A DNA stretch of 20,337 nucleotides. It comes from a virus. Shown in pieces: positions 6,001 to 20,337 of the stretch. The notes under the pieces are model-generated. The model made no database searches, was not told the DNA's origin, and saw only the letters and a list, made by a program, of their open reading frames with translations. The position numbers and the translations under genes were made by a program. Location: IMG/VR virus record IMGVR_UViG_3300030107_007528, positions 1 through 20,337 of that record; one strand, written 5' to 3'. How positions within the stretch are numbered: position 1 is the stretch's first letter; each line of letters begins with the position of its first letter.

Positions 6001-6890
6001 AGGATGACGGCCCAACCATGACCTTCATTGATACAAAGATGATTCCCGTAGTGAGGGTATTTTTAGTAGAGGAGCCCGCTCAAAGCCATATTAGAGAAAT
6101 CAATTACCCTACAGATACCAATTTTTACACCACCAAATTTGAACTGAAAAGCAGTTCACCGGGGATCACTTCTGACACGAGAATTTGTGACATTTTTGAG
6201 AACTTTCAGTATGGACTTAGATTATCTTTTCCACTGGTCCCTTCCGACGAACTGGACGATGAGAATCTTCTATTACAGTCATCAAAAAAGATGCTCGAAA
6301 CCTTTAACAGTATTATAGAGATAACGTCGCCTACCGAATTCTACTGGGAGAAAAAATATGGTAACTTTATGACCCCGATAAACTCAGAGCCAGTAACGAT
6401 GTTTATCGATACGTTCAAGAACCCACAATTGAAAATTAACGGCGCCCTCCCCCCAAAACAGCTATCACCAGCCGCGTTGATCCCTATTACAACTTCTCAG
6501 TTAACTTTAGCGGACATCAAGAAGAATGAGAGTGGCCAATTTATAACCACCTCTCAAAAATTTAAAGATATATTTAAAAACTTTCCTATGCATGGTAGTG
6601 AAGAATTTAAAAGTGATATTCATCCTTTTTTACAATCTGAAAAATTATATGGTGAACCTATAGGGAATCATCTTTATTGTAAAATGCTTGAGGATCCCCA
6701 TTTGAGACAGTTTTTTCGGTGTGGAATCAAGCTTCACAATTCCCTGGCGTTCGCCACACTTCAGACCCACATCCAACTTTTAGCTGCCTATCAGAGTTCT
6801 CAGAAGACAAAACCTTTTGAGATTACCAAAGATATGTTACAAAAAATTAGTGATTACATAATTACCAATAGAGACGGAGATGACATATAA
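1..6890 (+). CDS. Giant structural protein upstream of gp25, 5' partial, family not recognised
   Basis: The frame is open from the left edge (first complete codon at base 3), so the start lies outside the window. The GTG at base 30 has no ribosome binding site and is only the first start-like codon in view. At least 2295 residues are visible. Residue numbers here count from that GTG. No signal peptide, lysozyme, LysM or protease motif could be recognised. The protein is mixed charged and helical with many short hydrophobic helices, a strongly hydrophobic segment near residues 695-714, and scattered cysteines with no regular spacing. The C-terminus (about residues 2205-2256) is a compact block with NHLYCKMLEDPHLRQFF. 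It overlaps the gp25-like gene by one base (TAATG), which suggests translational coupling and a role in the same baseplate. In T4-like phages the neighbourhood of gp25 and gp6 holds wedge and hub genes, so a baseplate or tail role is inferred. A tape-measure role is less likely but not excluded. Confidence 0.75.
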   Translation, partial: DAAATAVSVVPQDENVTPPQSFMNVFQVVYPKEQFESLYDMKFRPDINERIQAAVENRPFLTGGQPNPLIFDGYPDFEEKIDRLIDLIKYYKEVQDEGSIVLSEAGLPLNFLTYVDPLEELKQDIKSHFEINGTSTTKKTKFSLDVAVHFGNAQYIIDAPVLMTGRSEDIIKKIRKELKKKESDPSIDNVATLTRLYSEARKEFSQNCLLKGWLLSAEAGGRSQIFEMEQQEMKTLGQADKAEGPYRIFADALYNNWVDPYVAQGPLQATIKFLSAMFDSLSAGAETQLPIGESSQARFYNPNLYFPTSGPVDDNTTNTQGFLTSTIEAGSMPLRMVNPRLVYLMRNLRQLLIVSNKTFDPGGCIADLKAKAEAAKTASKLITDASTADIEDLAAAPDDDSTKLIEQSQNQAPPGPIEFAKKYLEWPRVSSGGYNIPQVSILMNSPLTSDPQEYRGVQASLAENLSNEEKLKLIDAARNEYSKRSVPEIIEEVMTPNGMELRRRTTSPQFLGASAFINEENKYEFSYDVDKLVAKRNRSFGDQIGDELFRIQPRAPAKIRDIDDAYRFFLAKLDLAAIAREAMKCTFLKYSLDDLIEMMCDELLEKFFGIFGADPDEFVKTLNKIKARQYKAGPLDLTYQVQQIFEDLEAQFVAWSQAQTVQFSENIFGEVSDSTDSSKPPPAGSPSFYASISDGLDKDTKRMLCELLIGGAMGIINLLVMLWKKMSDDDVDTNKPGGELKFKECEFPFSLDLPDRLPHWSKILQTIITQVEKLAQDYVEQFVIVPLRTALKKLLDCSDDSPPAKVGDFLQEPSLDGLFAALDTPSSLRSLLKSYIRDVISRLTVADTCSLLKGEPSDQTIGVCAMVLNEPKYDVAQLQTMLRTKTHKISFFESLGKSADFEICDAIAEFQNTDMCNEGLTPLQLRMRSILSAVGFTPEEVDYQMELDVKTDKEDLKQLLTSFFGAPEEVITSSQIEDIVASSEAIKKVNDKALGLVLNPLDVNMVNYDFDNFKEQYAKILLTEKVKQLQQDEKTDELATLNTNVNNNGIQYVVKDDQLIGLLDKTKINNPATDPLIEQTNNHVRLGDFVYHEINLFGDPDVATSELLNLSPLSSDISQYYSNDLQTTPPHITSYLTSTLSTSPSLSWVLNTCSANLKQKAYELATTEDKLKPTATTQGVTRLPYSEWLLNIEELKRVISTLASQNFRELPEGENTPPTHLYDAVFEGIVVIYTRLFLAELMMSAPYIFQSSSPEGILDTAMVRQYIKEVMYPGLGDEFERLENQLDVISSTYLVEKSDMNVNYKASLSQLNKLAAEFFNKIESGPCVVDNTNAEAIPLTFRSSSDFFDYVDVGDTLLFSDTLTKNNQQFIFEKYASFDRIKPGLLSGGQVNKLRSLGILGLAGYPENPIPSRKQIISEKDLFSIFQVIYDETDLPTQPRNLIPLGFYVEDDKDAQWRLSNEGGEKNASQLYYSPNFQSYKMMYGLMAEKYFRTLILQFGNGLVDPKPEPSVDGAKAWPSSWFEIGEKYSQEKEDLEAILEWIALTIPNWYSPDLSQSEKDYIQEQLDARNPNFLEFVGYDDVTSFTYSNAKTSVLGWSGDGDTKVWDQDPGKAIKALAEATVDWISPASYSNYSYTRALVGWIWERIINVELPQIEPTVETSMAIQNLFLNIEREFFPQSNPEINSIKKKLLKDVDVEWSDDGTTNKTFKKYYNEAYFTHSEFGGNREVEEVELYKMFFPYYYRLHPITPEGAYVGKRGVFKTPSWVDDADLVLEGNISQGDGGFDPEIAMTTNPVFVRDFTYNHFNGLIDSGGDLRPADISKRGSLLPQVRRAPGCPGRMVGKFMFTETFPAGSRYLEGEQNEIKHVYTGANESCELLTKDTFIEKFNSYRDSVNDIYTQLADAAADPLLPFIGSGGTNTGAANLESMGIPRSIIRLEKLTDSDSFKAVDDEGKEYELFFKRINIRVPTRVYTISGAEDDDFWTSTEFHTVKGGVSYEDDGPTMTFIDTKMIPVVRVFLVEEPAQSHIREINYPTDTNFYTTKFELKSSSPGITSDTRICDIFENFQYGLRLSFPLVPSDELDDENLLLQSSKKMLETFNSIIEITSPTEFYWEKKYGNFMTPINSEPVTMFIDTFKNPQLKINGALPPKQLSPAALIPITTSQLTLADIKKNESGQFITTSQKFKDIFKNFPMHGSEEFKSDIHPFLQSEKLYGEPIGNHLYCKMLEDPHLRQFFRCGIKLHNSLAFATLQTHIQLLAAYQSSQKTKPFEITKDMLQKISDYIITNRDGDDI
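2112..2171 (+). other. Hydrophobic, Gly-containing segment inside the first giant protein
   Basis: Residues 695-714 (counting from the GTG at base 30) read LCELLIGGAMGIINLLVMLW. There is one acidic residue near the start, and charged stretches lie on both sides (DKDTKR before, KKMSDDDVD after). The length and composition fit one membrane-spanning or membrane-associating helix, or a buried core helix. It is the most hydrophobic stretch I noticed in this protein. Confidence 0.4.
6876..6880 (+). promoter_or_regulatory. Ribosome binding site of the gp25-like gene
   Basis: GGAGA lies nine bases before the ATG at 6890, inside the last codons of the upstream giant gene. This is close to ideal spacing and supports that start, whose A is also the last base of the upstream TAA stop. 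Confidence 0.7.
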
Positions 6891-7285
6891 TGGCTTACGG
6901 CATATCAGTTCAATTACCACTTTCCTTAGATACAAACGATGGGGCATATACTCTCAACAAAACAATTAAAGAGAGTATTAAGCAAAATTTTAAAAATCTT
7001 ATTCTGACTGCTCCCGGAGAGAGAATCATGGATCCGGCCTTTGGAGTGGGGATACGAAGGTTTTTGTTTGAGAATAGCGATGACTTTACCTCGGATGAGA
7101 TCAAGTCTCGTATTGGTGAACAAGTGTCTATTTATCTGCCCTTTATTAGTATCATCAGTATTCAAATCGCCAATGCTCAGAACGCTTCCCCACTCTCTGA
7201 TCTCGGCAGAAATGAGATAGTTGTCAGCATTGTCTATCATATAAAAGAGATAAGTAGTTCGGATACATTAGACATAAAATTTTGA
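6890..7285 (+). CDS. gp25: Baseplate wedge protein, gp25-like (GPW/gp25 family)
   Basis: The protein has 131 residues, about the length of T4 gp25 (132). The family signature lies at residues 41-61: a Gly-Glu-Arg, then DPAFGVGIRRFLFE, matching the conserved turn and helix of the gp25/GpW fold shared by T4, P2, type VI secretion and other contractile systems. The N-terminal half (TLNKTIKESIKQNFKNLILT) is the usual amphipathic helix before that motif, and the C-terminal half is alternating beta strands ending in YHIKE. In T4, gp25 is part of the wedge core that binds gp6 and gp7 and helps start sheath assembly. A gp6-like gene follows after 39 bases, which fits. The start overlaps the upstream stop by one base and has a good ribosome binding site. 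No anomaly is seen. Confidence 0.93.
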   Translation: MAYGISVQLPLSLDTNDGAYTLNKTIKESIKQNFKNLILTAPGERIMDPAFGVGIRRFLFENSDDFTSDEIKSRIGEQVSIYLPFISIISIQIANAQNASPLSDLGRNEIVVSIVYHIKEISSSDTLDIKF

Positions 7286-7324: not shown

Positions 7325-9163
7325 ATGGCTAAAAAAGATGTGCCCATAAGATATACTAGTAGAGATTATAATAGTATTAGAAACGACCTATTGGACCACG
7401 TAAAAAGGTATTATGGGACGAGTTATAAGGATTTTAACGAAGCTACTTTTGGCTCGATGATGATAGACGCTGTAGCCTATATTGGCGACATCTTGTCGTT
7501 TTACACTGATTATCAGGCTAACGAATCTTTTTTCGATACAGCGAATGAATACGACAATGTAGTTAAGCAAGCGAGGCAGCTTGGTTACAAGTTTAATTAT
7601 ACCGCCGTCGCCACAGGCAAGGTAGATTTCTTCCTTTCTGTCCCCGCTAATAGCAATGGAATCGGTATTGATATATCTTATCTACCAGTTTTAAAAAAGG
7701 GGACTTTGGTTTCAGCCGGCAGCAATACCTACACGTTACTGGCCGACATTGACTTTTCTAACTTGGATATCGTTGATGTGGCGGTAGGGACGGTCAATTC
7801 AGACACAGGCGCCGTAGAAAACTATGCTGTTCGAGCGTCCGGAGATGTCATTTCCGGCGACCTACTTTTTACGAGCTATGAAGTAGGAAATTTTAGAAAG
7901 TTTCTTTCGGTTGATATTAATGATCCAAATGTGATAGAAGTTGTTTCGGTTTTAGACTCCGAGGGTCACGAATATATTCAAGTGGAAAATCTGGCTCAAA
8001 ATGTAGTGTATAAGGCGATTAAAAGCCAAAGAAGCGATAAAAACTTGGCGCCGTATCTTCTGAAACCTTTCGTCGCCCCTCGACGGTTTGCTGTAGAGAG
8101 GTCTCGTTTTAAGACCACTTTACAGTTTGGCCATGGCTCGGATAGTGAGATAAAGTCTCCCGGAGTGGCAGATCCGAGTGACGTCATCCTAGACATATAT
8201 GGAAAGGATTATGTCTCGGACCCATCTTTTGATCCAGCTAAGTTAAACGATTCCGATAAATTTGGAATTGCACCAGCAAACACCACTTTATCTATAGTCT
8301 ATAGAGCCTCTTCCACGGAAAATATGAATGCCCCAGCCGGAGCGATCAATTCAGTTTCGAACGCTATTCTAGAGTTTGATGTAAACGAGACCCTTCAGGG
8401 CGCCAAAACTCAGGAAATTATATCTAGCATAGAGGCCTCGAACCCCGAAGCTCTCGTAGGCGATTCCACGTTGCCCACAATTGATGAGCTTAAGATGCTC
8501 GCTAAAAATCATTTTGCTGCCCAAAATAGAGCTGTAACAAAGCAAGATTATATAAGTTTAGCGTATTCAATGCCGAGCAAGTTTGGGTCTCTCAAACGAG
8601 TAAGCGTGGTACAAGATGTAGATTCTTTTAAACGAAACTTAAACATGTATTTGCTCGCCGAAGATCCATCGGGTAATTTAACCGCCCCTTCAGCAACCAT
8701 AAAAGAGAACCTTCGAACATGGCTTAACAATTATAAAATGATAAACGATACCGTGGATCTGCTTGACGCTCAGATCGTCAATATTGGAATCAACTTCGCT
8801 CTCGTCGCAGAAAGAAATTATAATCCTACAGAACTACTTTTACAGTGCAAAAGTAGATTATCTGAGTTGTATGCTCAGAAATTTAACATTGGAGAGCCCC
8901 TTAATATCGCTCAAATTTATCAGGTGCTAAATCGTGTAGAGGGAGTGATTGATACCACAGATGTAACTATTATACAGAAGACCGGAACAGCGTATTCGGG
9001 TGTTAATTACAATATAGCGGAGCATTTGTCGACCGATGGTCGTCTGTTGTTGGTGCCTCATGATACCGTGTTGGAGATTAAATTCTTGTCGTCTGACGTA
9101 ACGGGCCAAATTATTGGCCACACGTCGGATTCATCGCTACCGAGCGGAGGAACAACGTACTAA
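7325..9163 (+). CDS. gp6: Baseplate wedge protein, gp6-like (baseplate J family)
   Basis: The protein has 612 residues (T4 gp6 has 660). The N-terminus carries the pattern usual for T4-type gp6: Y-T-S-R-D-Y near residues 10-15, then DFNEATFGSMMIDAVAYIGD (37-56) and LSFYTDYQANESFFDTA (57-73), followed by a beta-rich part. The C-terminal half resembles baseplate J proteins: LAKNHFAAQNRAVTKQDYISLA (about 392-413), a Leu/Asn-rich helix around 458-470, and a long alpha/beta segment through LNIAQIYQVLNRVEGV (526-541). In T4, gp6 forms the inner ring that ties the wedges together and binds gp25 and gp7; its equivalents are P2 gpJ and TssF. The order gp25 then gp6 supports the call. The next gene starts two bases after its stop. 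Confidence 0.92.
   Translation: MAKKDVPIRYTSRDYNSIRNDLLDHVKRYYGTSYKDFNEATFGSMMIDAVAYIGDILSFYTDYQANESFFDTANEYDNVVKQARQLGYKFNYTAVATGKVDFFLSVPANSNGIGIDISYLPVLKKGTLVSAGSNTYTLLADIDFSNLDIVDVAVGTVNSDTGAVENYAVRASGDVISGDLLFTSYEVGNFRKFLSVDINDPNVIEVVSVLDSEGHEYIQVENLAQNVVYKAIKSQRSDKNLAPYLLKPFVAPRRFAVERSRFKTTLQFGHGSDSEIKSPGVADPSDVILDIYGKDYVSDPSFDPAKLNDSDKFGIAPANTTLSIVYRASSTENMNAPAGAINSVSNAILEFDVNETLQGAKTQEIISSIEASNPEALVGDSTLPTIDELKMLAKNHFAAQNRAVTKQDYISLAYSMPSKFGSLKRVSVVQDVDSFKRNLNMYLLAEDPSGNLTAPSATIKENLRTWLNNYKMINDTVDLLDAQIVNIGINFALVAERNYNPTELLLQCKSRLSELYAQKFNIGEPLNIAQIYQVLNRVEGVIDTTDVTIIQKTGTAYSGVNYNIAEHLSTDGRLLLVPHDTVLEIKFLSSDVTGQIIGHTSDSSLPSGGTTY
9146..9151 (+). promoter_or_regulatory. Possible ribosome binding site of the 660-residue protein, long spacer
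   Basis: GGAGGA lies within the last codons of the gp6-like gene, 14 bases before the ATG at 9166. The spacer is long. With the gp6 stop only two bases before the ATG (TAATAATG), re-initiation by the terminating ribosome probably also contributes. Confidence 0.45.
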
Positions 9164-9165
9164 TA

Positions 9166-11148
9166 ATGAGTATTAAACGATACATAGCTGACGCTGACAA
9201 CACAATTACGAACGCTTTTAAGGCAAGCCTTACCACTCGTGGAACAGGCTCTAATATGGGCGCTTCTGACGTTCTAGAGGTGTTCTCAATTTATGGACAA
9301 GTATCCAGTTCCGCACCGGTTGGTTACACTGAAGAACTGGCGAGAATCCTCATTCGATTTCCAATCGACGATATTGTGACAGATCGAACCAGTAAAAATA
9401 TACCAGCGAGCGGAAATGTTTCTTTTTTCCTTAGAATGTACAATGCCAAGCACTCCTTTACACTGCCTACTGACATGAAGTTGGTTGTTACCCCTGTTAA
9501 ACAATACTGGGAAGAGGGTTTCGGGCTAGACATGGAAGAATATACCGATCTAACATACGATGGTTCGGGGTCTAACTGGCTTAGAAGAGCTACATCTTCC
9601 GCAGGAACTCTGAGTTGGGATCGACTTGGTGGCGACTATTATGATCACGACAGTCTGGCAACGAGCTACACCGTAAACTTTGCCCATGGGTGGGAGGATA
9701 TGGAAGTAGATATTTCCGGACTAGTTGAGCAATGGATTGCAACCAACGTCGCGGCAACTGCTACAATAACCATTACGGACTACACCGAACTCAACACGGG
9801 TGATAAGGTGAACTTGATTGCTACGGACGGCACTAACTACGACTTTACCAATGGTGATCAAAGTTCGGTCAATGGCACATGGGAATCCGCAACCTCAAAC
9901 GATCAAACAGCGACCAATCTGATGAATGTCATCAACACTTCAAGTGGCCCAGCCGGAACCAGATTCACCGCTACGGTGGAAGGGGCCGTTGTTACGGTAA
10001 CCCAGGCCACAGCGGGCGATGGTGGCAATACGACTGTTACTCTTACAGATTCTGGGACTGCTGGGATGTCTAAAACAAATTTTACTGGTGGCACCGGCAA
10101 AACCAATCATGGAATAATTATAAAGCTTACCGGATCACAGGAGGCATTTTCGGACACCGAGAGTTCAACCGCTGTTCTCCTTAACGACACGGGCTCTAAA
10201 CGATCTTACTATACTAAAAGATTTTTCGCTCGAACAAGTGAATACTTTTTTAAGCGGCCTTGTATTGAAGCTCGCTTTGATGAGTCGATTAAAGATGATC
10301 GAGGAAATTTTTATTATAGTAGCTCGTTAGCCCCAAAGGATGATAACGTAAGTCATTTATATCTTTACAACTATGTGAGAGGTAAACTTACAGATATCCC
10401 AGGCATCTCTTCGGATTACAAGGGGGAAATTTATGTTTCTTTCTTCTCGGGGAATTTGGCCAACTCGGCAGCCACCGAGAAGGGAGGCCCCATTGAGTGT
10501 GTGGATACCACGGGGTTCGTAAACCAGCCGAATCCGTATGTCGTGACAGGCGGCTATGTTTCTACTGGAATTTATTCTGCTTCAGTATGCCTCACGGCAG
10601 CATCCGATCCTTTAACACGGATCTACGATGTCTGGTTCACGGGCAGCATCCAGGTCGGAAACCCGACTATGGACAATGCTATAATTTTTAAAACAGGCAG
10701 TTTTGTGCCCAATACTTTGAGCAGTTCTCCCATCTATGAGACTCCTCGTTACAGCACTAAAATTACGAACTTAAAGACAGTATATGGGAGCAATGAAACT
10801 CCCCGACTCAGAGCGTTTGTGAGAACCATCGGAGAGGACTACAATATTTACACCAGAGTTAACGCCGCGGCCAAAAATACCATTATTGAAGACGCTTGTT
10901 ATAAGGTTTACAGATTGACTGACGACTTAACGGCAGTAAGCTATGGAACCGGCTCCTCTCCTGGTGTAACAGGGTCAAAAGAAGATTATACTCGTCTTTC
11001 TTTTGATGTTTCGGGAGGGTATTTCGACTTTGATATGTCCCTCCTTGAAAAGGGATATGGTTATGGCATTAAGTTCGCTTACTATAACGGAATAGAGTAT
11101 TTAGAACAACCGGAGATTTTTAAATTTAGGATTGAAGATAAGTCATGA
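9166..11148 (+). CDS. Phage structural protein with a DNRLRE-like beta-sandwich and an inserted domain
   Basis: The protein has 660 residues with no signal peptide or membrane segment. Residues 1-193 and about 314-330 look like one split beta-sandwich. It has an ARILIRFPIDDI strand (59-70), an aromatic-rich stretch with SWDRLGGDYYDHDS (150-163), then DISGLVEQWIA (182-192). After a 119-residue insertion it resumes with NHGIIIKLTGSQEAF. In DNRLRE-type domains the segment ending in V-x-x-W runs almost directly into N-x-G-x-x-hydrophobic, so the insertion sits in that loop. Residues 345-400 (KRSYYTKRFFARTSEYFFKR, RGNFYYSSSLAP) and the beta-rich C-terminus complete the protein. From memory this arrangement occurs in large marine-type phages; that is not checked. 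It starts two bases after gp6 and overlaps the next gene by four bases (ATGA). A baseplate-peripheral or host-contact role is inferred. Arg codons by hand count: AGA 11, CGA 8 of 26. Confidence 0.85.
   Translation: MSIKRYIADADNTITNAFKASLTTRGTGSNMGASDVLEVFSIYGQVSSSAPVGYTEELARILIRFPIDDIVTDRTSKNIPASGNVSFFLRMYNAKHSFTLPTDMKLVVTPVKQYWEEGFGLDMEEYTDLTYDGSGSNWLRRATSSAGTLSWDRLGGDYYDHDSLATSYTVNFAHGWEDMEVDISGLVEQWIATNVAATATITITDYTELNTGDKVNLIATDGTNYDFTNGDQSSVNGTWESATSNDQTATNLMNVINTSSGPAGTRFTATVEGAVVTVTQATAGDGGNTTVTLTDSGTAGMSKTNFTGGTGKTNHGIIIKLTGSQEAFSDTESSTAVLLNDTGSKRSYYTKRFFARTSEYFFKRPCIEARFDESIKDDRGNFYYSSSLAPKDDNVSHLYLYNYVRGKLTDIPGISSDYKGEIYVSFFSGNLANSAATEKGGPIECVDTTGFVNQPNPYVVTGGYVSTGIYSASVCLTAASDPLTRIYDVWFTGSIQVGNPTMDNAIIFKTGSFVPNTLSSSPIYETPRYSTKITNLKTVYGSNETPRLRAFVRTIGEDYNIYTRVNAAAKNTIIEDACYKVYRLTDDLTAVSYGTGSSPGVTGSKEDYTRLSFDVSGGYFDFDMSLLEKGYGYGIKFAYYNGIEYLEQPEIFKFRIEDKS
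9748..10104 (+). other. Inserted Thr/Ala/Gly-rich domain, copy 1 (in the DNRLRE-like fold)
   Basis: This covers residues 195-313 of the 660-residue protein. It starts with ATATITITDYTELNTGD, has a Ser/Asn-rich middle with TATNLMNVIN, then FTATVEGAVVTVTQATAG and GGNTTVTLTDSG, and ends with NFTGGTGKT. It is almost all predicted beta strand with one short helix. Hand count of 9781-10080 gives about 150 of 300 G+C (50%), against about 147 of 360 (41%) in sampled flanking lines. A related copy lies in the next gene. I cannot name the family; from memory, close versions recur in marine phage structural proteins. Confidence 0.75.
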
Positions 11149-14100
11149 GTTTAAAAGATTTATTTAAGCAGGGAAATATTTCAAAGGTTCTCGTGGCTAA
11201 AAGTGCCGAAGAGATCGGAAAAGAAGCCGAATCTGAGAGATATGTGTGGTCGAGAAAAGAAGAAAGAAACCGACTCATCCCTCAGATTGACTTCTCCGAC
11301 CCTAAAAACTTTGCTAAATTTGGATCAGCTGAAGAATATTATGTTCAGTCTATTAAAAGGATATACAGCACCTATCCTTATGATGGGTCTCGTTATGAAA
11401 AACAAGCCTGGGAAAACAGTTCTTCTTATTTAGATTTATATATTTTTGAGGAACTTTATCCACGAACCACAGGCCACGCCATCTTCTCCCCTGATAATGC
11501 TGGAAATGGGTGGGGAACTATCTCCAACACCATTGGCCAATATGACCTTTCCTCCGACCAAGAATACATCTTTTTTAAAGGTGGTCCTCATCCGAATCGA
11601 AATAGTTCAAAAATTAACGAAGCTTTCCCTAGTTTGGAGACTCGTCAATCGGGCAATGTTGGGGCCAATTTATTTGACCTAACGGAACATCGAGAATCTA
11701 ACCTGAAGATTGGGGGAATCGACGGAAACACGATTGAGTTTTGGTTGAAGAAGCCGGAATTTCTTACAAGCGTTAACACCGTAGATCATGAGACTGTTTT
11801 CGATTGTTATACGACGAGTAGTATAACTTCGAGTTTAAATTACGGAAGACTGAGGGTTGAGCTATCAGGAACCTCGGTCGACAACTGGGGTCCTGCGGCC
11901 ACGGCAACAATCACTATCTCGGATTATTCGGACGTTTCAAACACGGAAACTTTAGTTTTAGTAGATTTTGAGGGAACCAGCATAACTTTAACAGTTGACA
12001 ATACTCAAGATAGAAGTCCTGGCGTGGCTAACAAGATCGGAATACAAGATGTGACCGATGATGAGAAATTGGCGCAAGCTATAGCTTTGGGCCTCAACGC
12101 CTCAACGACTAAAATTACCGCTGCCCCAACAGACGGCTCTAGTGACACTATCACTTTCACTCAGGGGTCTATCGGAGCAGTCGGAAATAGGGTCAACTCC
12201 ACTACATTCGGCGCCGGATACGGACTGTTATCCGATTTTACGGGAGGAGAAAGCACATATACACCGTTTTTTGTGACATGTATGTCGGGCAACAACGGGT
12301 TTTGGAGAGTCCCGGTTGGGAATGTAACTACAAGTGATGTGGCCGATGGCAACTGGCACCACTACTCGATTGTTGTCGAGAACACAGGAGCATTAAGTTC
12401 TCGCCTAGAGGAGTTTCCCCCTGTTGATACGGAACAACTCTATGGAGGAGGCGCTCAGCCTGATATGAAGGCTATGAAAATCAGCTTTTATGTCGATGGC
12501 CGATTTAACGATAGCATTGTGACGGGCTCGACTGTAGATTACGTGTCCGGAGCCCTAGTAGCCACCGTTGGTTCACTGGTTGCTTCACCATCCGGAAGCC
12601 CTGGGGGAACAATCCAGGCCGCAGTCAAAGAAGATATGCAGACCATGAGAGGTTATGGAAAACTTTCAGGCTCCATAGACGAATTTCGATTTTGGAAAGA
12701 AGCTCGATCCGCTAGACAAGTCGGACTAAATTGGAAATCCCCAATTGGTGCCGGAACCAACTTGGATTTGGCCAACACCCAACTCGGGGTGTACTATAAA
12801 TTCAACGAGGGAATAACCCAGACCTCAAGTGTAGACTCTACGGTTATCGACTATTCGGGTCGTGTAACAAACGGCTACTGGACAGGTTACGTGGAGGCTG
12901 CCCGTGCCACAGGTTCAGCAATTGTAGAATCTTCAGCGTCTGCAGAAGAATTTAAAGACCCAATTTTATACTCTTTCCACCCTAAAGTGGACAGCTTAGA
13001 ATATCATAAAAAATATGAAGGTCGAGCTTATGACCTTAAGAATCCGGGAAACTTTTATAGAACGTTTCCAGAGTGGATTCTTTCTGAAGATTCGGACACG
13101 GGCGAAAATCTTTTAAAACTAACCCAGGTGATGTCCAGCTATTTTGACACCCTCTACTTGCAACTTAAACAACTTCCATCCATTAAAAATGTTCAATACT
13201 TAAGTTCAAGTGTGGGAGCCACCGGCAGCTATAAGCCTCTTCCTTTCATGGATCGAGTCTTGGAGTCTCAAGGTTTTTTGACAGCTGATATGTTCGCTGA
13301 TGCATCAATCATCGAGCAATATATGGATAAGGACGACTATAAGAATTTTACAGAAAAATTATCAGATGTTAAAAATTTAATATATCAGAATATTCACAAC
13401 AACCTTGTGAACATTTATAAGACCAAGGGAACCGAAAACGCTTTTAGAAACTTTATTCGATGCTTTGGTGTCGATGAGGATTTAATTCAATTAAACATTT
13501 ATTCCAACAATGAAGAATATGAGATAAAACAAAATTATCGATATCGCTCAGAGCGTAAAAACTATATTGATTTCGGAACTTACGGAGATCACGAGGCAGT
13601 TGTATATCAATTTAAGTCAGGATCTCAAAGTTCCGGCTTCCTTTCTGCTTCCAAGACAGCATTCTCGGAATCAGGAATGTCCCAGACTTTTGAATGTGAG
13701 CTAATTGCCCCACCTCCTCCAAACCCAACGGTCCAGGGAGCTTCTTTATATCCATATGTAACCTCCTCAGTTTTTGGAGTTCAACAGGTTAACTACCTTG
13801 CCAACGGCACAGTGGACGAAGATGACACTAGTTGGGAATTGGGGCGAGTACAGGACGATTATGCCAATTTTCAGGTTTATGTTGTTCGCCCAGGGGTGGG
13901 ATCTACAACTGGTAAATTTGTTTTAACTGGCTCAAATGCCAGCGGAATTACAGCCCTCAGCAGCAGTTATTATGTAGATTTGTATGATGATCGAAAATGG
14001 AATCTGGGAGTAAGAATTGTACCAAAGGCCAGCCCGTGGATGGATACAGTGTCTGGCAGTTCGCCCCAAGGGGACGAGGATGGCCTTGGGTATCGAGTAG

Positions 14101-17100
14101 AGTTTTACGGGGTAAATTACGACGCTAATACAATCCGAGATAGTTTTTATAAGACAGCAGATTTCTCCCCAGAAGCATCATCGGCTGACGCGAATGATGC
14201 CCGAGGAGATAAGTTCTTACAAAACGGCAAGCGAATGTATATCGGAGCCTTAAGGACTAACTTTACCGGAGCAGTAGTTCAACGAACAGATCTTAAAATC
14301 TCTTCGACAAGAGCCTGGATGGGAAATATTTCCAATGAAGTTATTAACGCCCATGCTATTGATGCCTCTAACATCGGAACTCTACGCCCTTATGAGAGTG
14401 CTTATTTGTTTGAAAACAGTGCCTCTTACGCTCCCCACAAGCTACGCCCGATGTCAAAAACAAATCAAGGAAGCAACCAGTATGTCCCAAATATCGCCAC
14501 CTTAGCTCTTAACTGGGACTTTAAAACGCTTACTGGCTCTTCAGGAGGCGGAACATTCTCAGTGTTGGATGCGTCATCGGGGTCTACAGCAGATATCGGT
14601 CGTTATGGTTGGTTAGGAAATATTCTAGAAATGCAACACCCAGGAAAGGGAAGCTTTTTCCGAGACAGCCAAATCAATGTGGTCGACACAAATTATATAA
14701 ATTCGGCCAAGCAAATGGATCCGGAATCTATTAACAGCCTAGATATGATTAAATCTCTGAGTAGAGATGACACCCATTTCACGAGAGAGAGTCGCCCAAT
14801 AAATTACTATTTTATGCTCGAAAAGAGTATGTATCGGACCATCACTGAACAGATGTTGAACTACTTTGGAACAATCAAAGATTTCAATGACCTAATCGGA
14901 AGCCCCGTTTACAAATATAGGCACGACTACAAGCCGATGGAAAAACTTCGTCACCTTTTCTTTGAGAAGGTGGGGAACATCCCGGACTTAGACAAGTATA
15001 TTGAGTACTACAGATGGCTGGATTCCGCCATTGGTGACATGGCAGAGCAACTTTATCCCGCCTCCGCGGACCATACTCAGGGCCTGAAGACGGTAGTGGA
15101 GAGTCATGTTTTAGAAAGAAACAAATATCAATACAAATATCCATCCATTGAACGAGGAAGGGATTACGATAAGATCGGAGAAGGGGAATCCCAAGTCCGA
15201 CTTGCCGATGGACAAGCAATGAGAGAGACAGTGGGCAACTGGTTTACTTTTGGATATCCCATAAAGTTAAATCCTCTTGACTTGGCCTCGTCCTTCAACT
15301 GGTGGAACGCAAGAGCAGAAAGAGACAAAACACCTGAGATTACTTCTGGGGTTACCAGCGTGGACGAGTTGAGAGAAGTATATAGAAAAATTATCTACAA
15401 TCCGAAGACTTTGGCTTTAGGAGCATACAATTACAGAAGAGGGACAAAGACTAATTTAAATGATATCTACAATCCCCCCTCAGCTAAGTCCGGACCATCT
15501 AGAGCATATCCCCACACTTTGCTGACTCATGGTCTCACCAACGGAGCCAACTCGTTTAGGGACAGCAGTTCCGACCTTATTAAACCAGACCTTCAAATTG
15601 AGGCAGGATCCGTCCCGGATCTGAGATACAATCAGTCTCCGGATGTTCAACCAAGCCCGCTTCATGACGTTGATGTTAATCTTGACAGGTTCCCTAAAAT
15701 TAAAATTGAGCCCAAAATAAATATATTAGATGAGGAACGAGGAGAACGAAATCAAATTAAAACGATGGAAGGGCTCCCTTCGTTATACAGTAGTAGTCTG
15801 GGCCTTCGGTTTACCAACATTCAACAAGATGTCTCTCACGGCGCTGAAGTCCCCCTCCAAGGCCCCTTTGTCAGAAAATATGTTGGAGGATATGAAAGCC
15901 GAAACGTGCCCATCAGCACAGCTTCTCAGGGACCAGAGGACCGAGTAGAAAGGTTCAGGATATCTGGACCTGCCTCGAATCTAGTTGGGGGCTCGGCGAC
16001 AGATGTCTACATTTATCCCCCAACCAAAACAAACGCTGGTGTGGAGAATTTACATCTTCCCCGAGCTGATATTAATCGAGGAACTCGACGACCTTACAAT
16101 ATTCGTAATATTCAACAACTAACAGCCTCTGCTTTACAAACATCAACGGTTCTGGGAAATTACGAAGAGAACTACCAGATTGTCATGACGTCAGGTCGAA
16201 GTATTAATGATCCTTGGTTTGCCAGAAACTCTGGCAGTATTGGAAGCACCACTCCTGAGATGCCATTTTTAACTGGAACGTTGAATTACGAAATACCAAC
16301 GAGAACAACAACTAAATCAATTATAGTAGAGCGATTCTCCAGCCCAGGAGGATTTGAAGTTCAATCGCTTGGTTATCTGGATCCTCAAGCCGAAGAGAAG
16401 TCGGTATACAACGCACTGCCCTTCAAGAATCGAATGGTCCTAAACGGATCAGGTAGTAAAGATTGGACCACCACCGAAGACAACGACCGGACCCATTTAG
16501 GAATTTACACAGATATTCATTCGGCCTCTGGTGATGGTTATAATTTGCTGTCTAGTCGTCATTGTGGCAAGTTTGGAATCGATAGCATTTACGGCACAAT
16601 CAGGGCGAATGATTACGACACCGTTCCATCATATCAGAATGTTCCGAGAAACACCCTCCATACTATCAAATATAGCAACACGGCGTTCAGTGATGCTCTC
16701 GGAGAATATGATCCACTGAATTACATTACTGCTTCCATTTATAACAACCTTTTCTACAATGCTCCAATCCCCCAGAGCGAACTTCAATATGCCTGGATTA
16801 GTGCTTCCTTAGAAAGCGCTTCGGTTCACCCCTTGGTGGGATATACTTCGAACGGAAGGATGTTTAATGGATTAGTTTCTGGATCCAATGGGTTTGAGGA
16901 TCCCATTCATTTTTACAAAGGTGAAGAAGCGTCTTCTTATTATAGCGGATACCCAGCTGACTTAGTTGGTCTAAATACTTTGGTGGTTGACACCATTTTA
17001 ACAGCGAGCAATCTTATTTCTGCTTCAACAACAGAGGATTATAGAAATACAGCATTTGCCACCGTAACCGATGGACAACAATTCATGGTGTTGATGAATC

Positions 17101-20100
17101 ATCGTAATGGAGGACTCCAAGCTCCAAGCTGGAAATTGACCTTTAAATCTTCTAATCCCCTGGTGAGAAAGCAGCGAGAGAATAACTTAATTAATGTTCT
17201 GGAATACAAGACGCTTCCTAAACCCTATAAAGGGGACACCACAACTAATTTGAATTTAGATAATTTAAATCAAATACCACAGACAAAAGTGGTCCGCCAA
17301 TACATCGTCCCGCCCCCAACCAGCAAGTTTAAACCGCTAACGCTGACTCTTGTGGATAAAGACAGCGCCGGCCCGGAGATGATTGTAAAAACCACTTATT
17401 CTAATAATTTTGATTTTATGACAACCCCTGAAATCGATTTGAAACTTGGCCTGAGTCAAACTAACCAACAACAGTTTGATATAATAAAAAATTCAGGCGA
17501 TCTTTCAATTTGTAAATTGGTTTATCCAGAAACGGTTTATCCCAAAGAGCAGTACACCTATCTGGCAAAAGTACGAGGTCGAATCTCGTATGCTGAAGCC
17601 AGCGGAAGTACGGACTTTAATCGACAACTAGGGACTCAAAGGACTTTCTGGAGAGATACTCCAAAAAATCGAAGACGTAGTAGCGACCATAAGGCCGTTA
17701 ATTCACAAGGAATTCTCCTTTATCAAGGAGTTGGATCAGCTTCTGTAGATCAATATTCCGGACAGCTTTATAATCAATTCCGGGAATATTCGTGTGCCCT
17801 GTCTGTTTGGCCTCTTGATGCTGGCTATTTAAGTAACTCTTACGGTGAAGATTTTGCCAACTATTGGTATGACCCCGCGGGCGGAGACACTCTTGCCCTA
17901 GAACCCCCTCAAGGGGCCTGGTATGATGAGCCCAATGGGGAACTTTTGACACCCACCATCAACCAGCTTTTGGCAGCAGTTTCACAAGAAGAATTTCCAA
18001 GCGTGGACGATGACTATGACTGGAGAGGTCCGGTCACGGCATCCCAACAGCTTCTTTACCCCAATAAATGGACATCCAATCTTTCGGAATCTGATGGAAC
18101 AGTGGGAAGTAATCGGGGATATGACCAGCGCTATTTAACTTACAATTTTTATCGAGCAGACTCACAATCCGGTAACCGACCGTGGTTTGACTCATACGAC
18201 GAATTTGCTTCGGACATTAGAGTTATGGCTCAGGGCCACACTGTCTTGCCAGAATTTAGAATATCCGAACACATGGAATATTATATTGACAACGGTTTTG
18301 ACTTTAACAACAAATTCTTGACTCTGGCAGGAGCCGATATATCAGCCAGTGCCAATACTGCTACTTCTAGCTATAATGAAGACTTCTTTAAGATATATTC
18401 TCATTCCGACTTTATGAAACATTTCGCAACTCTTGATACTGTAGACAATAAGCTTTCGAGAATTACACTACAGTGCCATGGGATCAAAAAGCTGCTTCCA
18501 TATAATGGATTTTATCCGGCGCTCCGAACCACTCAACTAGGAAGCATGTTTTCCCAATCTTTTGGTCCGTATATTTCAGGCTCTACAGCATCCCAAACAG
18601 GCTCTTATGACGGGGAACGAATGAAATCTATTCTCCAACCCTTCTTTGCTCCTGGGATCATGTATAATACAATTAAATCCGGTCTCGCTGTCGACTTCCC
18701 CGTTTATACTGGATCTATAGAGGGGGGAAGTTCATACCTGGGTCGTTTCAGGAGGAAGAGTGTGGCAGAAGGCTCTTTCTATAACTATAGAATGCCCTTT
18801 GAGGCAATTGTGGAGCCACAAAGATATCTCCCGGTGGACAACCCAACGGATTCTACGGACGCTGCCATTTCGTTCCTCTATAATTGGACCGGCAGCACGG
18901 GAGTCAATCCCCCCATTTTCCCCGAACAAATATATGGATCCTGGACAGGAGAATCTGATTACAACTACAATTTGGCCATGAATAATTTCCTGGCGGAAGT
19001 TCCTAAATTTTTCTTGAAAGACGGGAGCTTCACCACATTTTCTTCAAAACCAGAAAATCAGTTTAAAACAATGAAATCCGGATCGACCTATTATATGGAT
19101 GTCGTATTGGCTAAAACTTCTAAAATGATAATGGCCCAAGGGCTGGGCAACGTCCCACTTTTAGAGGTTACAGCGAGCACCGACAGCAGCAAGGGTCTCG
19201 TAGGTAATGATTTCCATGGACAAATCTTTGGGCCAGCCTGTGAATACTTTAGAACAGCTGATAATGTTCCTCATCCCAATTATAGTCCATCCCAAGGTGC
19301 GTATTATGCCGACACTATCTGTATGGCAGATCCCGGATTTGCCCCCCACACTCCTCCTTATTTTTACGGGGATGCCATAGCTAGAGTTTCTTTCACGCCA
19401 GAGAATCACGTAGTTCTTTTGGAGGGGGAAAGTAAGTTCTTCACTTTAGACGAAATCTTGGCCGGGTGTAAAATTGATACGATTTATACATCGAGCTATA
19501 CTGAAAAGACTAATTGGCTACAGTTTGCCATAAACAATAATTATCCGGCAGGGCTGTCTCAAATGAGGCTCTCGTCTTCTGTCAATCTGTTTGGAAAAAG
19601 TAGTATTAAAAAAGTGACTTATCAAACAGATGCCCAAGAAGAGGGCAAGTTTGTACCAGCCGCTGCCGAGGACCCAACAGACTCTTCATTCGACTTGTGG
19701 ACTATTAGTCCAAAATTTGAGTGTCCCGTTATTAACGTTTCTTCATCCACAGCTTCAGGCTCAGCTTATTCAACTTTGAAAGAAGCCTCATTCGGTTATC
19801 AAACCGGAGATAGTGATGATATATCCAATAAACAAAGTCAATTTGGAGATATCACCTCAGTTAAGTCCGTTTGGGGTCAATACGGCAACCCACCTAGTGG
19901 CTCAGAGGGGATATTCCTCAAGATTAAGGAGAGCTATCCGGATGTCCTAGAAGATCCATCTTCTGGAGCACAGACTACGGGCTCGCTTATTGATATCTGT
20001 GGGTTCCAAGAAAGTACGAAAAGAGTCGGCGAGTTCTCTGCAGAAAAAACAATCTCTGAGGCAGTTGTGGCGATTCCCTTTGTTCAAAAAGCCGGGAAAA

Positions 20101-20337
20101 GAAAGTTCTTCCCTGTCTTGAAAACTCAGGTTAAATATGTGCTGGGAACGGCGACAAAGGGGGAGACTACAAAGTTAACCAACAATGGGAAATTACCAGG
20201 AGAATCTATTACAAACATGGTGACGGCCTTACAGAAATATGTATTACCTCCCCACCTTGATTTCATTAACAATAAGTCAGTTCAGCCTTATGTCGCTTAT
20301 GTTTTTGAATTCGAACACAAATTGAACAGAGACGATT
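11145..20337 (+). CDS. Giant multidomain baseplate/adhesin protein, 3' partial (at least 3064 residues)
   Basis: The ATG overlaps the previous TGA (ATGA). No strong ribosome binding site precedes it, so coupling by re-initiation is likely. The frame stays open for 3064 codons to the right edge with no frameshift seen. Domains in order: a conserved-looking N-terminus with RNRLIPQIDFSDPKNFAKFG (41-60) and SSYLDLYIFEELYPR (93-107); a LamG-like domain (about 193-556) split by an inserted domain; a helical part with IYKTKGTENAFRNFIRCFGV (757-776) that resembles gp7/gpI wedge proteins; a second lectin-like domain (about 835-1090); a helical block with IGSPVYKYRHDYKPMEKLRH (1251-1270); then beta-rich blocks at about 1725-1762 and 1983-2014. 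It ends near YVLPPHLDFINN (3032-3043). From memory this arrangement occurs as one giant structural gene in large phages. It probably forms the outer wedge or host-contact part of the baseplate. The true end is outside the window. Confidence 0.85.
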   Translation, partial: MSLKDLFKQGNISKVLVAKSAEEIGKEAESERYVWSRKEERNRLIPQIDFSDPKNFAKFGSAEEYYVQSIKRIYSTYPYDGSRYEKQAWENSSSYLDLYIFEELYPRTTGHAIFSPDNAGNGWGTISNTIGQYDLSSDQEYIFFKGGPHPNRNSSKINEAFPSLETRQSGNVGANLFDLTEHRESNLKIGGIDGNTIEFWLKKPEFLTSVNTVDHETVFDCYTTSSITSSLNYGRLRVELSGTSVDNWGPAATATITISDYSDVSNTETLVLVDFEGTSITLTVDNTQDRSPGVANKIGIQDVTDDEKLAQAIALGLNASTTKITAAPTDGSSDTITFTQGSIGAVGNRVNSTTFGAGYGLLSDFTGGESTYTPFFVTCMSGNNGFWRVPVGNVTTSDVADGNWHHYSIVVENTGALSSRLEEFPPVDTEQLYGGGAQPDMKAMKISFYVDGRFNDSIVTGSTVDYVSGALVATVGSLVASPSGSPGGTIQAAVKEDMQTMRGYGKLSGSIDEFRFWKEARSARQVGLNWKSPIGAGTNLDLANTQLGVYYKFNEGITQTSSVDSTVIDYSGRVTNGYWTGYVEAARATGSAIVESSASAEEFKDPILYSFHPKVDSLEYHKKYEGRAYDLKNPGNFYRTFPEWILSEDSDTGENLLKLTQVMSSYFDTLYLQLKQLPSIKNVQYLSSSVGATGSYKPLPFMDRVLESQGFLTADMFADASIIEQYMDKDDYKNFTEKLSDVKNLIYQNIHNNLVNIYKTKGTENAFRNFIRCFGVDEDLIQLNIYSNNEEYEIKQNYRYRSERKNYIDFGTYGDHEAVVYQFKSGSQSSGFLSASKTAFSESGMSQTFECELIAPPPPNPTVQGASLYPYVTSSVFGVQQVNYLANGTVDEDDTSWELGRVQDDYANFQVYVVRPGVGSTTGKFVLTGSNASGITALSSSYYVDLYDDRKWNLGVRIVPKASPWMDTVSGSSPQGDEDGLGYRVEFYGVNYDANTIRDSFYKTADFSPEASSADANDARGDKFLQNGKRMYIGALRTNFTGAVVQRTDLKISSTRAWMGNISNEVINAHAIDASNIGTLRPYESAYLFENSASYAPHKLRPMSKTNQGSNQYVPNIATLALNWDFKTLTGSSGGGTFSVLDASSGSTADIGRYGWLGNILEMQHPGKGSFFRDSQINVVDTNYINSAKQMDPESINSLDMIKSLSRDDTHFTRESRPINYYFMLEKSMYRTITEQMLNYFGTIKDFNDLIGSPVYKYRHDYKPMEKLRHLFFEKVGNIPDLDKYIEYYRWLDSAIGDMAEQLYPASADHTQGLKTVVESHVLERNKYQYKYPSIERGRDYDKIGEGESQVRLADGQAMRETVGNWFTFGYPIKLNPLDLASSFNWWNARAERDKTPEITSGVTSVDELREVYRKIIYNPKTLALGAYNYRRGTKTNLNDIYNPPSAKSGPSRAYPHTLLTHGLTNGANSFRDSSSDLIKPDLQIEAGSVPDLRYNQSPDVQPSPLHDVDVNLDRFPKIKIEPKINILDEERGERNQIKTMEGLPSLYSSSLGLRFTNIQQDVSHGAEVPLQGPFVRKYVGGYESRNVPISTASQGPEDRVERFRISGPASNLVGGSATDVYIYPPTKTNAGVENLHLPRADINRGTRRPYNIRNIQQLTASALQTSTVLGNYEENYQIVMTSGRSINDPWFARNSGSIGSTTPEMPFLTGTLNYEIPTRTTTKSIIVERFSSPGGFEVQSLGYLDPQAEEKSVYNALPFKNRMVLNGSGSKDWTTTEDNDRTHLGIYTDIHSASGDGYNLLSSRHCGKFGIDSIYGTIRANDYDTVPSYQNVPRNTLHTIKYSNTAFSDALGEYDPLNYITASIYNNLFYNAPIPQSELQYAWISASLESASVHPLVGYTSNGRMFNGLVSGSNGFEDPIHFYKGEEASSYYSGYPADLVGLNTLVVDTILTASNLISASTTEDYRNTAFATVTDGQQFMVLMNHRNGGLQAPSWKLTFKSSNPLVRKQRENNLINVLEYKTLPKPYKGDTTTNLNLDNLNQIPQTKVVRQYIVPPPTSKFKPLTLTLVDKDSAGPEMIVKTTYSNNFDFMTTPEIDLKLGLSQTNQQQFDIIKNSGDLSICKLVYPETVYPKEQYTYLAKVRGRISYAEASGSTDFNRQLGTQRTFWRDTPKNRRRSSDHKAVNSQGILLYQGVGSASVDQYSGQLYNQFREYSCALSVWPLDAGYLSNSYGEDFANYWYDPAGGDTLALEPPQGAWYDEPNGELLTPTINQLLAAVSQEEFPSVDDDYDWRGPVTASQQLLYPNKWTSNLSESDGTVGSNRGYDQRYLTYNFYRADSQSGNRPWFDSYDEFASDIRVMAQGHTVLPEFRISEHMEYYIDNGFDFNNKFLTLAGADISASANTATSSYNEDFFKIYSHSDFMKHFATLDTVDNKLSRITLQCHGIKKLLPYNGFYPALRTTQLGSMFSQSFGPYISGSTASQTGSYDGERMKSILQPFFAPGIMYNTIKSGLAVDFPVYTGSIEGGSSYLGRFRRKSVAEGSFYNYRMPFEAIVEPQRYLPVDNPTDSTDAAISFLYNWTGSTGVNPPIFPEQIYGSWTGESDYNYNLAMNNFLAEVPKFFLKDGSFTTFSSKPENQFKTMKSGSTYYMDVVLAKTSKMIMAQGLGNVPLLEVTASTDSSKGLVGNDFHGQIFGPACEYFRTADNVPHPNYSPSQGAYYADTICMADPGFAPHTPPYFYGDAIARVSFTPENHVVLLEGESKFFTLDEILAGCKIDTIYTSSYTEKTNWLQFAINNNYPAGLSQMRLSSSVNLFGKSSIKKVTYQTDAQEEGKFVPAAAEDPTDSSFDLWTISPKFECPVINVSSSTASGSAYSTLKEASFGYQTGDSDDISNKQSQFGDITSVKSVWGQYGNPPSGSEGIFLKIKESYPDVLEDPSSGAQTTGSLIDICGFQESTKRVGEFSAEKTISEAVVAIPFVQKAGKRKFFPVLKTQVKYVLGTATKGETTKLTNNGKLPGESITNMVTALQKYVLPPHLDFINNKSVQPYVAYVFEFEHKLNRDD
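11721..12812 (+). other. LamG/concanavalin A-like domain 1 of the giant protein, interrupted
   Basis: Residues about 193-556 of the giant protein. Typical LamG elements appear in order: NTIEFWLKKP (195-204), GRLRVELSG (234-242), GFWRVP (385-390), DGNWHHYSIVVENTG (401-415), MKISFYVDGRFND (444-456), GSIDEFRFWKEARSARQV (509-526) and LGVYYKFNEG (547-556). The W-H-H-Y, F-Y-V-D-G and I-D-E-F-R-F-W motifs are hallmarks of the fold. A foreign-looking segment breaks the sheet between GRLRVELSG and TYTPFFVTC. Such domains usually bind glycans or act as structural beta-sandwiches. Confidence 0.8.
11871..12254 (+). other. Inserted Thr/Ala/Gly-rich domain, copy 2 (in the LamG fold)
   Basis: Residues about 243-370 of the giant protein. 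It opens with AATATITISDYSDVSNTET, has a helix with DDEKLAQAIALGLNAS, then TDGSSDTITFTQGS and GAVGNRVNSTTFG, and closes with DFTGGES. The opening (ATATITI-T/S-DY-T/S) and closing (FTGG) match copy 1 in the previous gene, and the strand-helix-strand order is the same, though the middle has diverged. Hand count of 11881-12240 gives about 169 of 360 G+C (47%). Confidence 0.65.
13080..13530 (+). other. gp7/gpI-like wedge region within the giant protein
   Basis: Residues about 646-795. A helical stretch (ENLLKLTQVMSSYFDTLYLQ, 654-673) is followed by a helix pair leading to NIYKTKGTENAFRNFIRCFG (756-775). A K-G-T followed by an aliphatic/aromatic helix and an L/F-G end recalls the conserved element of tail protein I and gp7-type wedge proteins, which follow the J/gp6 gene in many phages. 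The position two genes after gp6 fits. The match is by motif and context only. Confidence 0.4.
13647..14414 (+). other. Second lectin-like (LamG-type) domain of the giant protein
   Basis: Residues about 835-1090. Elements in order: MSQTFECELIAPPPP (845-859), NFQVYVVRPG (908-917), YYVDLYDDRKWNLGVRIVP (942-960), YRVEFYGVN (983-991), RMYIGALRTNFTG (1030-1042) and TDLKISSTRAWMGNISNEVI (1048-1067). The D-x-x-W-x-L-x-V-R-I and R-M-Y-I-G-A elements mirror the strand order of LamG domains. A Pro-rich loop (APPPPNPT) lies after the first strand. Confidence 0.6.
14811..15150 (+). other. Helical, aromatic-rich block of the giant protein
   Basis: Residues about 1223-1335. It contains YRTITEQMLNYFGTIKDFND, IGSPVYKYRHDYKPMEKLRH, DLDKYIEYYRWLDSAIGDMA and VVESHVLERNKYQYKYPSIE. 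It is helical and rich in Tyr, Lys and Arg, in contrast with the beta-rich domains around it. From memory this block is well conserved among giant phage structural proteins; I cannot verify that here. It may be the structural anchor of the chain. Confidence 0.5.
16317..17190 (+). other. Two ordered beta-rich blocks of the giant protein
   Basis: Residues 1725-1762 include SIIVERFSSPGGFEVQSLGY and EEKSVYNALPFKN. Residues 1983-2014 include LMNHRNGGLQAPSWKLTF and VRKQRENN. Both read as compact, low-variability motifs rather than linker. Between them lies the Tyr/Ser/Asn-rich stretch with NAPIPQSELQYAWISASL. I recall similar strings in giant phage structural proteins but cannot name a family or function. 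Confidence 0.45.

Follow-up and report, generated by a model that had tools for sequence, protein, structure and literature searches.

The window, that is, the whole stretch of DNA analysed here, comprises 20,337 bases and constitutes the entire IMG/VR record IMGVR_UViG_3300030107_007528. Its features are listed in Table 1. Two adjacent genes, coding for p660 and for a giant protein, each harbour a segment that opens with ATATITI-DY and closes with FTGG. The genes for a gp25-like and a gp6-like baseplate wedge protein lie directly 5' of these two hosts, which assigns both to the baseplate operon of a contractile tail. According to the ORF list, the giant ORF (11145-20336) lacks a stop codon inside the window; the 2295-residue frame that precedes the gp25-like gene (3-6890), itself open at the window start, had PHROG matches no stronger than E 0.2.

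Table 1. Coordinates of the features discussed in the text
Feature	Position	Strand	Basis
gp25-like baseplate wedge protein	6890..7285	+	PF04965 E 6.8e-11, phrog_261 E 4.6e-23
gp6-like baseplate wedge protein	7325..9163	+	phrog_219 E 4.9e-21, phrog_10646 E 9.5e-16
p660, hosts segment 1, 660 residues	9166..11148	+	ORF list and relatives
Segment 1, ATATITITDY...FTGG copy in p660	9754..10092	+	empty-site comparison and AF2
Giant protein, hosts segment 2, at least 3064 residues, open at window end	11145..20337	+	ORF list and 34 relatives
Segment 2, diverged ATATITISDY...FTGG copy in the N-terminal, weakly LamG-like part of the giant protein	11898..12248	+	searches and AF2

Segment 1 spans residues 197-309 of p660 (113 residues) and segment 2 residues 252-368 of the giant protein (117 residues). 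The initial annotation had described them as related, with common ends and diverged middles, and both parts of this description were confirmed. Their local BLOSUM62 score of 95 lies above that of shuffled sequences (44.6 +/- 8.4, maximum 82, n=500), a protein search with segment 1 matched segment 2 in its own record (E 2.9e-4, at an overall identity of 32%), and an iterated profile linked the two at E 5.6e-16 in a small database of fetched ORFs. Judging from these sequence comparisons, the two segments are homologous. AF2 predicted, with confidence, a compact fold for segment 1 (54 sequences; pLDDT 95.2, pTM 0.89) and gave a pLDDT of 82.0 and a pTM of 0.78 for segment 2 (26 sequences). Both models run through the same order of elements, namely strand, short helix, two strands, long helix and three strands, a likeness that refers to element order and not to superposition. 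The prediction, together with the joining of the profiles, gives no sign of two unrelated folds.

A Foldseek comparison of the segment 1 model with the PDB returned no match below E 0.24. Against predicted viral structures, it found 24 matches at E <=0.001, including baseplate J-like, major tail and tail sheath proteins, and weaker ones to tail tubular protein B, capsid and fibre proteins. The best PDB match of segment 2 was to domains D2-D3 of FliD, the flagellar cap protein (TM 0.55-0.57, probability 0.93, E 0.067). Kinship with FliD was rejected, as the sequences do not support it (probability 0.2 in hhalign with the E. coli protein); PF07196 (flagellin IN) had no match in the six records in which it was sought, and FliD D2-D3 is absent from the listed structural matches of segment 1, such that we treat this similarity as a lead only. 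Pfam and PHROGs offered no convincing family for the domain, a few members having scattered weak matches, at best to PF16377 (5.5e-5, one member) and phrog_28344 (2.5e-4, eleven members), neither of which has a name, and a carbohydrate-binding Pfam match was looked for in the domain and not found.

To compare the sites of insertion, p660 relatives were fetched using the sequence after the domain, 17 of them coming from the scan and others being found upstream of giant relatives. One of these, L069, is 98% identical to p660 past the insertion site and provides a clean empty site for segment 1, with LVEEWIAGT-KTNHG against LVEQWIATNVA-[domain]-FTGGTGKTNHG in the window. At the DNA level, the window exceeds this empty site by about 9741-10086 plus one codon, and its junction consists of TGGATTGC, the insert and TGGCACC. 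The site is also empty in the other aligned p660 relatives and in nearly fifty relatives in a wider comparison; nearly all relatives are empty there, and the carriers L110, L112, L113 and L190 hold distant copies in the very loop that accommodates segment 1 in the window. The 117 columns of segment 2 contain at most 5 residues in any of the 34 fetched giant relatives. L069 and L086 belong to the same contig of 123 kb, and searching it with the profile yields not a single copy of the domain. Hence neither segment is a constant part of its host protein, segment 1 being missing from L069 and segment 2 from 34 of 34 scanned giant homologues, and both are true insertions. L004, a giant homologue beyond these 34, carries a segment-1-type copy in the loop of segment 2. 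The initial proposal that each segment interrupts a beta-sandwich at a loop stood with regard to the insertion, which the empty sites of relatives indicate; the putative LamG-like nature of the giant protein around segment 2 derives from a Pfam match that is sub-threshold (E 0.2). As a separate observation, this weakly LamG-like part (11700-12650) is about 0.6 identical to the nearest relative, L086, compared to about 0.83 further on, and as a whole seems to have been exchanged or to evolve fast.

The domain is not confined to these two hosts. With segment 1 as query, we found copies in 66 viral contigs, the close relatives being 57-90% identical, at differing places in host proteins of very different length; the latter form 15 clusters with no mutual resemblance outside the domain. 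With a widened profile, the count rose to 298 copies (186 frames), a number swollen by many contigs that were fetched twice, and 80 copies in 17 host clusters were left after redundancy removal (19 labels once p660 and the giant protein, joined by single linkage, are split). Segment 2 alone had no matches in viral contigs. Named hosts are a tail sheath protein (PF04984, phrog_23), a podovirus tail protein (phrog_376) and a head protein (phrog_8455); a further host is Tail_P2_I-like, with a match just under the cut-off, and two unnamed host families adjoin a head-tail connector gene. The presence of copies at differing points in these further virion proteins supports the idea, put forward in the initial annotation, of a domain that moves or is exchanged among them. 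In one host, the podovirus tail protein L034:1916-4858, an E1_FCCH-type match (PF16190) directly precedes the domain copy, so that two kinds of module adjoin. Considering the Pelagibacter link described below and the nature of such records, the contigs are likely marine in origin.

Even within a single host family, the domain occupies many positions. In stop-to-stop numbering (which exceeds ATG numbering by 23 residues for p660 and by 1 for the giant protein), p660 proteins have three insertion points, at about 162-187, 214-216 and 514-526. In the giant family the domain is found at at least ten points, at about 243-250, 823-828, 883-906, 925-939, 1147-1156, 1337-1387, 1547, 1595-1640, 1716-1731, 1766-1868 and 1925-1995, with a few more that are less certain. 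The domain also accepts itself: in L006-L011 and L048, a copy is split by a second one, whose insertion point, between the strands RFTA and VVTITQ, corresponds to a turn in the predicted model of segment 1. Single genomes can hold several copies, with 5 each in the L012 and L108 records. L090 possesses a private, long-branched subtype, with one full and one partial copy in its p660 (865-3243) and two in its giant protein (from 3251); these copies are 60-83% identical among themselves, and their occurrence in both proteins points to spread within a genome as well.

INPHARED protein searches with segment 1, p660, the N-terminus of the giant protein and two diverged copies gave no match. Cultured phages were reached only via a host protein: when that of L041 was used as query, it led to phages that infect Pelagibacter, a marine bacterium, in which tail tubular protein B (nozzle) contains a domain member in HTVC034P (E 7e-19) and HTVC010P (E 3e-19). 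These copies had escaped the direct search owing to low-complexity filtering or divergence. In a comparison that excluded HTVC028P, six relatives, HTVC035P, Lederberg, HTVC203P, HTVC024P, Greip and Skadi-1, have an empty site at precisely the HTVC010P/HTVC034P point, most of them being recorded on the same host strain as the carriers, while Baldr has at this site a 91-residue insert that the profile does not recognise. Strain HTCC1062 is recorded as host for several phages with and several without the domain, indicating that the domain is optional for infecting this strain. Outside viruses, two scans of GTDB genomes with narrower alignments detected no relative, and we found no description of the domain in a literature search that covered mainly papers outside subscription.

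Copies in different host clusters share a mean amino acid identity of 75%, with identities of 0.79, 0.85 and 0.44 at first, second and third codon positions. Conservation of the amino acids while third positions are near random indicates that the domain protein is under selection, and pairs of copies in unrelated hosts have dN/dS values of 0.13-0.28. By these measures, the amino acid sequence is under purifying selection in whichever host protein it resides. In DNA, the closest pair in unrelated hosts (L039 and L005) reaches 89% identity. On a tree of the 80 copies, which has few columns and many weak or unresolved forks, host labels change 33 times; this number lies between the minimum of 18 and the shuffled mean of 56.2, meaning that copies group by host, though not cleanly. 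Segment 1 itself has a GC content of 0.50, compared to 0.435 for the remainder of p660, and its donor is not among the sequences compared, the closest of which in DNA reaches only 82% identity.

These segments almost certainly belong to a single family of small beta-rich domains that fold independently, are about 100-135 residues long and move among the virion genes of tailed phages. Its mobility is apparent from in-frame loop insertions in unrelated virion proteins, from clean empty sites and from insertion into itself. As to the route, the identity between p660 and L069 shifts at 9733, beside the insertion, from 86% on the left to 93% on the right (reached in 0/200 block permutations within p660, and at 0.04 with the stretch extended to 11600), and dS falls from 0.82 to 0.30 across it. 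Together with the 7 bp, TGGCACC, that the right junction shares with the empty site, this suggests recombination at the insertion point in this single case. Between p660 and more distant relatives, synonymous sites are saturated and the comparison is uninformative; an equivalent identity jump was sought at the insertion in Pelagibacter pairs and not seen. The window/L069 junction exhibits no clear target-site duplication, only the 7 bp shared. The terminal codons of domain copies vary synonymously, and the domain thus has no fixed DNA ends. An intein was rejected, because the splicing residues (Cys/Ser at the N end, His-Asn at the C end) are absent, the ends being ATATITI and FTGG; segment 1 is devoid of cysteine. 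Rickettsia palindromic elements are in-frame inserts of about 30-50 residues in unrelated protein-coding genes, with palindromic DNA and housekeeping genes as hosts. In contrast, the mobile domain is folded, lacks fixed DNA ends and is seen in virion genes.

We consider it likely that a mobile domain with a role in attachment best accounts for these observations as a whole. The domain would move by ordinary recombination during co-infection, a short shared end sequence being used rather than an enzyme of its own; it would be tolerated because its two ends are necessarily close together, allowing a loop to carry it, and it would be kept for an accessory function on the virion surface. Most likely, the domain would aid adsorption by binding weakly to glycans of the host surface, or to other material of the envelope. 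Attachment as the function, taken by itself, we regard as about evenly balanced. The segment-1 subfamily retains loops that in distant members are free to vary, and such conservation in hosts that are not related speaks for a single ligand or partner common to them. One can go further and ask whether a single ligand-binding module circulates ocean-wide through the virion genes of contractile- and short-tailed phages, continuously re-equipping their surfaces, through a process biased towards precise insertion, in frame, into loops and into itself; this joint reading strikes us as rather unlikely.

The domain could, alternatively, reinforce or decorate the virion, as a spacer, a stabiliser or a binder of a neighbouring virion protein, with no ligand on the host. 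Its occurrence in sheath, nozzle-type tail, baseplate and head-region proteins alike, beyond tips and fibres, would fit such a role, as would the structural matches to predicted sheath, major tail, capsid and baseplate proteins. These varied host structures, however, share no neighbour, and yet the segment-1 subfamily keeps most of its residues and loops, for which reason we give this explanation only a minor share of the probability. Nested copies, multiple copies per genome and empty sites among phages recorded on one host strain would also be expected of a near-neutral or selfish passenger, a low-harm in-frame insert of the kind that has been proposed for Rickettsia palindromic elements, conserved only since misfolding would break its host protein. 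Such a passenger appears improbable to us, as it sits uneasily with the conserved loops of the segment-1 subfamily, with the dN/dS values, and with termini that vary synonymously in place of fixed DNA ends; moreover, all nameable host families are virion proteins, several further families being without a name. Descent from an ancestral virion protein with the domain, followed by loss in most lineages, is very improbable: although some sites are common to several carriers, such as the p660 site of the window, the copies at this site are far apart on the tree, the host proteins are unrelated, one protein family has at least ten points, and copies in unrelated hosts are up to 89% identical in DNA.

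A mobile domain with an attachment role has precedents in tailed phages. Ig-like domains (Fraser et al. 2006, as cited in PMC9230969) recur in different virion proteins with horizontal exchange and have been proposed to bind carbohydrates weakly. Like these, the mobile domain is accessory and beta-rich, recurs in virion proteins of unrelated phages and is present or absent among relatives; unlike these, it is mostly an internal insertion with conserved ends, and its predicted fold of a central helix and about seven strands is not an Ig fold. An Ig fold was rejected, with TM scores to Ig chains of about 0.3-0.4 in Foldseek (E >=0.24) and no Pfam Ig match. Tail sheath proteins have additional domains, of which types 2 and 3 are beta-rich (PMC9230969). 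The predicted sheath of Agrobacterium phage 7-7-1 resembles the modelled fold of the mobile domain (TM 0.60, E 1.5e-3), and both have a short TA..GVxTLT..G..GN stretch (hhalign E 0.009, at a probability of only 4%); the mobile domain, however, occurs near-identically in many non-sheath proteins too. A survey of contemporary domain mosaicism found recent shuffling of fragments between phage proteins, as we see it for the mobile domain, the main sites being tail fibres and spikes, endolysins and DNA polymerase (PMC10684548), whereas the mobile domain, which matches no named family, resides in sheath, nozzle, baseplate and head-region proteins.

That virion proteins exchange accessory domains is known in its main lines, chiefly from Ig-like domains and from receptor-binding proteins. 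Here, a single domain without a name, with copies that are often 80-90% identical, is seen in numerous unrelated virion proteins, and its empty sites are clean. This closeness, combined with the clean empty sites, makes insertion points, direction and age readable, and the domain offers a handle for annotating many unnamed virion proteins. In the Pelagibacter phages, cultured natural relatives with and without it are available on one host strain. Their nozzle proteins accept other inserts too: among L230, L238 and L239, inserts alternate between relatives, namely one of about 75 residues near residue 98, the 91-residue one of Baldr and one of 69 residues at another loop in Skadi-1, the nozzle being a protein with several loops that accept differing inserts.
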